Assembly: GCA_003211755.1 (NCBI GenBank)
Contig: QCRS01000008.1
Span: forward strand, 1-35,693
Reading direction: 5' to 3'
DNA from: Prochlorococcus sp. AG-463-F15
GTDB taxonomy: Bacteria > Cyanobacteriota > Cyanobacteriia > PCC-6307 > Cyanobiaceae
DNA length: 35,693 nucleotides
This document shows, one piece after another, positions 531 through 2,497 of the stretch. Made by a program: the position numbers and the translations under genes. Position 1 is the stretch's first letter. The number at the start of each line of letters is the position of its first letter. Under the pieces are notes generated by a model, which saw only the letters and a list, made by a program, of their open reading frames with translations, made no database searches and had not been told where the DNA came from.

Positions 531-764
531 TTTCAAAAACTTTGGCAAGGTGGTTAATTCATATCGTTGTTATTGGATTTCAGGATTTACTAAATTAAGA
601 ACTCTTATGAATGTTCCATTCTTTTTGCTGAGTTCATTATTACAAACCTCATTTTTATTTAATGATTAGAAGTCAATTACCGCAGTTGCTTTCAACGAAG
701 GTCTTTTAGTGATTTTTGCTACTACCAGGGTGCTTGAATAAGTTGATATTTCTTAGAGCAACCA

Positions 765-1598
765 GTGGCAGAGAAGAACGCATTAGCCGAGAAGAAAGCA
801 GCCGCTGAGAAGAAGGCAGCAGCTGATAAGAAAGCAGCCGCTGAGAAGAAGGCAGCAGCTGATAAGAAAGCAGCCGCTGAGAAGAAGGCAGCAGCTGATA
901 AGAAAGCAGCAGCTGAGAAGAAGGCAGCAGCTGATAAGAAAGCAGCCGCTGAGAAGAAGGCAGCAGCTGATAAGAAAGCAGCCGCTGAGAAGAAGGCAGC
1001 AGCTGATAAGAAAGCAGCCGCTGAGAAGAAGGCAGCAGCTGATAAGAAAGCAGCCGCTGAGAAGAAGGCAGCAGCTGATAAGAAAGCCGCCGCTGAGAAG
1101 AAGGCAGCAGCTGATAAGAAAGCAGCCGCTGAGAAGAAGGCAGCAGCTGAGAAGAAGGCAGCAGCTGAGAAGAAGGCAGCAGCTGAGAAGAAAGCAGCAG
1201 CTGAGAAGAAGGCAGCAGCTGATAAGAAAGCAGCAGCTGATAAGAAAGCAGCAGCTGATAAGAAAGCAGCAGCTGAGAAGAAGGCAGCAGCTGATAAGAA
1301 AGCAGCAGCTGAGAAGAAAGCAGCAGCTGAGAAGAAGGCAGCAGCTGATAAGAAGGCAGCAGCTGATAAGAAAGCCGCCGCTGATAAGAAAGCAGCCTTA
1401 GCCCGGAAACAAGGAAGTGCTAATCAGATTTCACCTGTTACGAAATCCAAGTCAGTATCTGAAAAGAAACGTGACGAACGAGCTCAGTTGTTGACTGTTT
1501 CGGTTTCAGTGAATACAGGGAAAATTGCAGGATTAGTTTCTATTGGGGTTGTTGCTTCAGCATTGTTGGTGGCAGCTTTAGCTTTCATTGCTAACTGA
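765..1598 (+). CDS. Lys-rich hexapeptide-repeat protein with C-terminal membrane anchor (unknown function)
   Basis: The protein has 277 aa. It starts at GTG 765; a stop lies in frame at 744-746 and no better start is present. After MAEKNALAEKK come 33 uninterrupted AAA(E/D)KK hexapeptides (residues 12-209). A linker (210-240) follows, then LLTVSVSVNTGKI and one hydrophobic helix (about 254-275) two residues from the C-terminus. This is a tail-anchored layout, and by the positive-inside rule the rod should be cytoplasmic. Each Lys can pair with an acidic residue at i+4, which favours a long, stable, non-amphipathic helix about 30 nm long. The repeat carries 66 Lys against 33 acidic residues, a net charge near +33. 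Composition resembles the TolA stalk and Lys/Ala-rich H1-like bacterial proteins, but composition alone does not establish homology. Its juxtamembrane motif recurs in the next two genes. Function unknown; nucleic-acid or membrane-surface tethering is only a guess. Confidence 0.8.
   Translation: MAEKNALAEKKAAAEKKAAADKKAAAEKKAAADKKAAAEKKAAADKKAAAEKKAAADKKAAAEKKAAADKKAAAEKKAAADKKAAAEKKAAADKKAAAEKKAAADKKAAAEKKAAADKKAAAEKKAAAEKKAAAEKKAAAEKKAAAEKKAAADKKAAADKKAAADKKAAAEKKAAADKKAAAEKKAAAEKKAAADKKAAADKKAAADKKAALARKQGSANQISPVTKSKSVSEKKRDERAQLLTVSVSVNTGKIAGLVSIGVVASALLVAALAFIAN
798..1391 (+). repeat. In-frame 18-bp tandem repeat, 33 copies, with a 36-bp higher-order period
   Basis: There are 33 perfect-length 18-bp units with no indel. 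The first 18 units alternate strictly E, D, E, D. Most E units read gcagccgctgagaagaag and the D units gcagcagctgataagaaa, so the effective period there is 36 bp, nine copies. The remaining 15 units are irregular: five E, three D, then E D E E D D D. Variants are confined to a few third positions (gca/gcc, aag/aaa). Near identity at synonymous sites suggests recent expansion or homogenisation by slippage or unequal recombination. Confidence 0.97.
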
Positions 1599-1635
1599 TT
1601 AAAGAAGAATTTCTTCTTTTGGTTTTTGTAATAGC

Positions 1636-2172
1636 TTGCATTGGCTATCAATAGAAGTTCTCTCCCGATGCTTGAATTGGTATTACTTGCATGAAGAACA
1701 AGTGCTAAGGGAGAGAATCAAGGAGTTGGTTGATTTTGCAACGACTGAATCACCTTATAGGGACGCAAATAAAGGATGGCTAAGCGAGGATGTCTATGTT
1801 CAGTTGGGATCATCGCCAGAATCAAGCCCAAAATCAGGCGTTGAGTTGGCAAATGTTTCTGTCTTTTGGAATCCAATAAATCAATTAGCATTAATTCTCT
1901 TGGTTGTTGTTTTAACAGCTTCAACTTTCGTATTTATTTCCGTTTCTTTTGCTCATGGAAGGTTTGAAACCTCTTCACCAACTTCTGAGTTAAGTACCAA
2001 GGTCGCTCCAGTCGTTCAAAGTACGGATAAATTAGAAATATCTCAGCAAGACAATACTGAGGTTTCTATAGAGGTAGCTCCAACCGACGAAAGGAAGCTC
2101 GAATTAGATACAACAAAGAGGAGTTCCGAATTTGCTGCTGCTGCTCTTGGAGGCCAACAGATCCAACGTTAG
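1636..2172 (+). CDS. Single-pass membrane protein of unknown function, paralogous motif to its neighbours
   Basis: The ORF gives up to 178 aa from TTG 1636. There is no in-frame ATG near the N-terminus, so the start is uncertain and a later TTG such as the one near 1673 is possible. Residues 20-33 (EEQVLRERIKELVD) are helical and charged. GVELANVSVFWNP (about 68-80) leads into one transmembrane helix (about 83-105). A soluble tail of about 70 residues, rich in Ser, Thr and acidic residues, ends in AAAALGGQQIQR. The ELANVSVFWN stretch just before the helix matches ELASISVYLN in the 44-aa protein at 2363 and LLTVSVSVN in the repeat protein at 765, so the three appear to share one membrane module. 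It lies 37 bases after the repeat gene on the same strand, so co-transcription is likely. I do not recognise the family. Confidence 0.6.
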   Translation: MHWLSIEVLSRCLNWYYLHEEQVLRERIKELVDFATTESPYRDANKGWLSEDVYVQLGSSPESSPKSGVELANVSVFWNPINQLALILLVVVLTASTFVFISVSFAHGRFETSSPTSELSTKVAPVVQSTDKLEISQQDNTEVSIEVAPTDERKLELDTTKRSSEFAAAALGGQQIQR

Positions 2173-2362
2173 TAATATCAATGAATATTGCTTTCCTCCA
2201 AAGACAATCATCTTTAATGTCTACGCAAAAATGAATCAGGTTTGATTCGTGGTGTGTAAAGGATTGCAGAAGTTTTTATAGGAATTGTTTTTAGGAGTGC
2301 TCTCTTGGACATTTCTGGTTATATGTGGTGCTTGAATATTGGGGCGAATTGCAGGTTCAAAA

Positions 2363-2497
2363 GTGGCAGAAAAACAAGGAAATGAGTTGGCCAGCATATC
2401 CGTTTATTTGAATACACCAATAGTGGCAGTCCTTTTGGGAGTTGGGTTCATTGTTGGTTCTGTTTTGTTCGCTGGTGTGATGTTGATAGCCAGATGA
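2363..2497 (+). CDS. 44-aa single-pass membrane protein (not in ORF track)
   Basis: GTG 2363 opens MAEKQGNELASISVYLNTPIVAVLLGVGFIVGSVL..., ending with TGA at 2495-2497. It consists of a short polar N-terminus, the ELASISVYLN motif, one transmembrane helix and a terminal Arg. It begins GTG-GCA-GA like the repeat protein (MAEK...), and its C-terminal 38 residues align without gaps to the last 39 of that protein (LASISVYLNT versus LLTVSVSVNT, then helix). It therefore looks like the same protein without the Lys-rich rod. An alternative in-frame start is TTG 2339. Its size escapes a 60-aa ORF cutoff. The similarity to two neighbours is the main reason to believe it is real. Confidence 0.65.
   Translation: MAEKQGNELASISVYLNTPIVAVLLGVGFIVGSVLFAGVMLIAR

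Follow-up and report, generated by a model that had tools for sequence, protein, structure and literature searches.

Three tandem Prochlorococcus genes with paralogous membrane anchors, a common upstream element and, in one of them, a cationic repeat rod

What relates three consecutive genes whose products look alike only at a membrane anchor, and what might such proteins do together? The genes, here called A, B and C, lie on one strand (+) of contig QCRS01000008.1 of Prochlorococcus sp. AG-463-F15, contig C8 of an assembly of 1.08 Mb that is 55% complete; the whole contig stretch of 35,693 nucleotides is referred to as the window. Those of its relatives that carry a name are almost all Prochlorococcus. 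They stand downstream of a partial alr gene and a tRNA-Ser(GCT) gene (441–531), and C is followed by a beta-lactamase2-like gene and then an NlpC/P60 gene. An initial annotation, made from the window alone, described one juxtamembrane motif followed by a helix in all three proteins, joined to dissimilar soluble parts. The soluble parts of A, B and C are indeed dissimilar. The ORFs and motifs are where that annotation placed them (A at 765–1598; C, 44 aa, from GTG 2363), and A and C do begin alike with GTG-GCA-GA (MAEK). Its 178-aa version of B, starting at TTG 1636, had to be shortened: an alignment of 42 relatives shows the conserved start to be GTG 1702, giving 156 aa. Where the ORF list gives 178 aa or 52 aa, an upstream start was chosen. 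Table 1 lists the features.

Table 1. Features of the three-gene locus, in window positions
Feature	Positions	Strand	Basis
Upstream element of A, TGCTTGAATA	731..740	+	DNA motif search
Gene A, 277 aa, GTG start; cationic hexad-repeat rod and C-terminal anchor	765..1598	+	ORF; profile A1 matches anchor, E 1.9e-19
Rod-coding tandem array, 36-nt unit x 17.4 (two hexads, AAAEKK/AAADKK)	771..1396	+	TRF
Anchor of A, LLTVSVSVN then helix TGKIAGLVSIGVVASALLVAALAFIAN	~1488..1595	+	Homologous to C anchor, hhalign E 1.6e-15
Upstream element of B, TGCTTGAATT	1669..1678	+	DNA motif search
Gene B, 156 aa, GTG 1702; N-terminal segment, anchor, disordered tail	1702..2172	+	Relatives' alignment; AF2
Anchor of B, ELANVSVFWN then helix	~1843..1953	+	Class-profile comparison
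Upstream element of C, TGCTTGAATA	2329..2338	+	DNA motif search
Gene C, 44 aa, GTG start; anchor alone	2363..2497	+	Relatives' lengths, pN/pS, AF2
Anchor of C, ELASISVYLN then helix TPIVAVLLGVGFIVGSVLFAGVMLIAR	2384..2494	+	Relatives' alignment

The three window copies were compared pairwise, with anchor scores set against 5000 shuffles. A and C score 59 against 25 for shuffled sequence (p<2e-4), and the similarity beats a control in which only the helix is shuffled (p=0.0014). B and C score 49 against 22 (p<2e-4) and fail the helix-only control (p=0.36), so their signal is carried by the motif. A and B are no more similar than shuffles (p=0.33). Comparing the helix alone with shuffled helices gives p=0.01 for A–C, p=0.05 for B–C and p=0.62 for A–B, again in the three window copies only. 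The initial annotation had named a shuffled-helix control as a test of its claim; within the window A–C passes it, the B–C helix does not, and A–B has no similarity to put to it. Convergence, in which three unrelated small membrane proteins resemble each other through low-complexity hydrophobic sequence, draws on the A–B and B–C helix results, which equal shuffles. For A–C it is already refuted, and for the family as a whole we consider it very improbable in view of the comparisons that follow.

Class-specific profiles built from relatives match each other far above decoys: hhalign gives 98.5% probability (E 1.6e-15) for A–C, 97.5% (E 5.9e-12) for B–C and 93% (E 2.7e-7) for A–B, while among all ORFs of the fetched loci the best unrelated ORF reaches 0.23 and the best reversed decoy 0.013. 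A C-only profile searched against eight whole genomes ranks C first (1e-21 to 1e-28), followed by the anchor of A (G061, G010 and G003; 9e-10 to 2e-6) or by a short form of B (G100; 5e-12); long B is matched weakly (0.03 to 3.8). In genomes that have C and lack B, the next match of the B profile is C. The short B, found in MIT9313-like genomes, is an intermediate between B and C, and its existence also counts against convergence, as does a rare upstream element common to all three genes (below). In MIT 0701 (L124; same contig as L037) and its relatives B has only 88 aa and a C-like anchor, MSIYWNTGIGAIIFGIGFVVTTLLLAGVSLIAW. A tree of only 44 columns recovers one clade for A (100/99), one for long B (100/99) and one for triplet-type C (97/89), with the short B branching between B and the others. 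At the level of sequence, A, B and C are confirmed as paralogues, one family with a homologous juxtamembrane motif and helix. The single motif and helix first noticed in the window stand on class profiles, genome-wide searches and the short B; homology of A with B, and of the B and C helices, rests on intermediates in relatives and not on the window copies.

The upstream element, RTGCTTGAATA, is new here and had been missed by the initial annotation. In the window TGCTTGAATW occurs three times, once per gene, where 0.4 copies are expected and 100 shuffles never give three. The genomes of four relatives (1.8–2.0 Mb) each hold 3–5 copies of RTGCTTGAATA; three belong to A, B and C, and the remainder are in unrelated places. 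The core TGCTT[GT]AAT typically lies 31–36 nt before the start codon (for A, 21–35 nt before the called start). It is present in 27 of 32 distinct A upstream regions, most of the five misses being starts called inside the element, and in 32 of 33 triplet-type C upstream regions (0 of 26 for the other type of C). B retains it in 26 of 66 cases; it is lost or altered in the NATL-like clade. In the TTnAAT part the third base varies, as in a −10 box, and the element may be an extended −10 promoter (TGC-TTnAAT). A consensus promoter scan gave no match at the element, and there is no evident −35 box. The reading of RTG CTT GAA (M-L-E) as coding sequence, be it an extension of the gene or a small ORF ahead of it, fits less well and was rejected: the following codon is variable, and the spacing to the start does not stay at a fixed multiple of three. 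Being common to A, B and C, the element adds evidence for duplication or co-regulation.

Tandem duplication, as initially proposed, is supported by these results. The accompanying idea that the soluble part was then swapped is partly right and does not hold as worded: the single clades of A, long B and triplet-type C mark the classes as old and vertically inherited, and the rod of A looks grown in place. C starts VAEKKG and A starts VAEKNA-LAEKKA-AAEKKA, with hexad and phase in common. In some MIT9313-like genomes (L037/L064) C itself starts VAEKKA-VAEKKG through an 18-nt tandem duplication that sister genomes (L067) do not have, and a duplication of this kind could have been the seed of the rod. 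The rod probably arose by extension of the AEKK hexad at the N terminus of a C-like protein. In the simplest scheme a C-like gene would have been duplicated, one copy becoming A by hexad expansion and another becoming B by gaining an N-terminal segment and, later, a tail. The direction from C-like to A is our inference; the alternative is loss of A in the MIT9313 lineage.

Homologues are abundant in related genomes; their absence, the other outcome that the initial annotation had named as refuting, did not occur. Of 400 genomes sampled from the taxonomic family, a profile search finds the anchor in 122, and about 80 have a full B. Across 244 genomes of the phylum, full-length matches are confined to Prochlorococcus-type genera, other matches being partial (E 0.004 at best). 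The family's larger genomes (2.2–3.9 Mb, presumably Synechococcus) have no anchor, with the exception of MIT9313-like ones. For orientation we take G100 to be MIT9313, G017 SS120, G107 MIT9211, G137 NATL2A and G144 MIT9312. NATL-like genomes and many deep-branching single-cell genera have A-B-C; SS120/MIT9211-like genomes have A and B together and C elsewhere; MIT9313-like genomes have C and the short B, without A; HL-like genomes have C only, and some have none of the three. The expected clustering at alr/tRNA-Ser is accordingly found in many relatives and is not universal, given the separate C of SS120-like genomes, the C-B pair of MIT9313-like ones and the reduced state in HL-like ones. HL-type genomes with only C or nothing indicate that the rod is dispensable for the genus. 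A phage origin was also considered, and tblastn of B and C against 50,697 phage records gave no match.

C is the minimal member. Every fetched relative has a C of 44–48 aa, most often of exactly 44; L9, A10, V14, L16, N17, T18, G28, F29 and F36 are invariant among them, and pN/pS against triplet-type relatives is 0.04–0.3; by these sequence measures it is a real coding gene under strong purifying selection. AF2 predicts one helix over residues 3–43 (mean pLDDT 86) that runs continuously through SVxxN, and a beta-strand at that motif was rejected on this ground. Small single-helix subunits of the photosystems, the b6f complex and NDH (Psb, Pet and Ndh) resemble C in size and strict length. C could then belong, as a small subunit, to a photosynthetic or NDH complex of Prochlorococcus, with A and B as derived, perhaps regulatory, versions, and it is in keeping with this that convincing matches occur only in Prochlorococcus-type genomes, whose owners use Pcb antennas. 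We regard it as rather unlikely, since at E<1 no Pfam model for a small subunit of a photosystem, b6f or NDH matches any of the A, B and C anchors, searches of solved chains with profiles A1 and A2 gave no convincing match, and some HL-type genomes have no anchor. A and B also differ from such subunits in being paralogues with large additions, without a profile or structure match. In HL-like genomes with C only, a gene for a soluble protein lies 3' of C on the same strand (L038:2407-3030 (-) and L160:2559-3008 (-)); one of the two proteins has EEDRLAIEKAK repeats and the other a weak Rho_N-like similarity (E 0.02).

B has a conserved N-terminal segment of about 40 residues (R/E/F/PY/A/W) before its anchor in the alignment of relatives. 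AF2 predicts helices at 2–14 and 45–84, with low confidence outside them and a pTM of 0.32, and the membrane topology is ambiguous from the sequence. A disordered C-terminal tail is usual outside MIT9313-like genomes. Many long B proteins (A2/A4 alignment) end in T-A-x-D-L-F-Q-x-K after about 80 disordered residues; this motif, possibly a docking peptide, is absent from the window copy. In MIT9313-like genomes the GTG of B directly follows the TAA of C, and the adjacency of C to a short B with a C-like anchor suggests that the two proteins are partners.

The rod of A keeps its charge while its sequence changes. In twelve one-contig genomes rods have 222–377 residues with a period of 6/12 (11 in one), and would be 33–57 nm long if fully helical, with about +1 charge per 0.9 nm. 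The measured rods of triplet-type A proteins carry a net 9.4–13.2 charges per 10 nm despite differing hexads (AAAEKK, AEAKKA/AEVRKA, ALAEKK). K is often followed by E four residues later (i+4), E hardly ever by K at that spacing, and there is almost no G or P. Assemblies of relatives often break inside the repeat (contig ends in L003, L004, L006, L011-L014 and others), which makes the rod lengths of single-cell assemblies untrustworthy; the shorter ones may be collapsed repeats. A second paralogue of A occurs at other loci, without B or C. One of these (L180:4423-7068 (-)) has 882 aa, an 11-residue EAERKAAEEKK repeat, an acidic N terminus, DLSAEEASAEEA, and a lower rod charge density (3.2 per 10 nm). 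Similar paralogues adjoin aroQ in L047 and L051.

The claim that no described family fits was borne out: Pfam, NCBIfam, PHROGs and PDB sequences gave chance-level matches only, and full-text literature searches found no description of the anchor family. DUF2275 (PF10039) matched B in one of 16 members, at 16.5 bits against a gathering cut-off of 24.6. Three known systems nevertheless resemble A in part. Domain II of TolA (Tol-Pal) resembles A in sequence, being likewise a long Ala/Lys/Glu helical spacer with one membrane helix. In TolA the anchor is N-terminal, the rod lies in the periplasm and a receptor domain forms the C terminus, whereas A has a C-terminal anchor with nothing after it and a net +1 per hexad; A lacks both the N-terminal transmembrane anchor and the C-terminal TolA domain, and no Pfam TolA model matches it. 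Single alpha-helix (ER/K) domains share with the rod regularly alternating charges, a near absence of G and P and the lack of a hydrophobic heptad, and by this likeness the rod would be expected to be monomeric and rigid. It differs from them in its Ala-rich hexads, in pairing K with a later E at i+4 but hardly ever E with a later K, and in being net cationic.

HC2 (PF07382) and similar Lys/Ala tails, the third system, share Lys/Ala-rich repeats and positive charge with A. They bear on a reading in which the rod is a membrane-tethered DNA- or RNA-binding arm, an H1-like Lys/Ala tail that holds the nucleoid or polysomes, with C and B as assembly partners. The composition and steady positive charge of the rod are equally suited to nucleic-acid binding, and the rod of the 882-aa paralogue matches HC2 with E 1.3e-8 (35.6 bits, below the gathering cut-off of 40). 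That match is likely compositional, and the 277-aa A of the window has no Pfam match. HC2 is soluble, whereas A has a membrane anchor; the single acidic residue in each of its hexads cuts the charge by half, a difference from typical H1 tails. We rate this reading as unlikely, though worth keeping in mind.

The explanation that we prefer, tentatively and short of calling it probable, combines paralogous anchors, one promoter-like element and an A rod that would serve, through its charge, as a spacer or tether at the cytoplasmic side of a membrane. C would be the minimal anchor, A the C anchor with an amplified AEKK rod, and B the anchor with an N-terminal segment and usually a tail. A and C end 0–3 residues past the helix in most relatives, as single C-terminal helices. 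By the positive-inside rule a basic flank stays on the inner side, and the very basic N side of A, with about one residue past the helix, points to an N-inside, tail-anchored protein. A would then be inserted tail-first, with the rod at the cytoplasmic side of either the plasma or the thylakoid membrane. The shared helices have small residues along one side (GxGF...S/AxxFA) and may pack side by side, which makes mixed assemblies of C, B and A plausible. C and B would determine where the rods stand and how densely, and the rods would space or tether acidic surfaces: an apposed membrane, the nucleoid or ribosomes. A more specific version is speculative, and we would not bet on it: a scaffold of low-light Prochlorococcus in which packed C and B anchors display cationic A bristles of 33–57 nm that space or tether membranes, nucleoid and ribosomes, under a promoter element dedicated to these genes alone.

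No photosynthetic organism is more abundant than Prochlorococcus, whose genome is strongly reduced. A 44-aa gene that stands outside curated families, and is easily missed by gene callers, has been kept in it from HL-type to MIT9313-type clades. The stepwise birth of a new protein may be visible in its relatives, from a minimal anchor through an 18-nt duplication of the start to a rod of dozens of hexads, with charge density held constant as the hexad sequence changes. Since A and B are absent from HL-type genomes and A from MIT9313-type ones, a link to low-light cell architecture would be testable in cultured strains.
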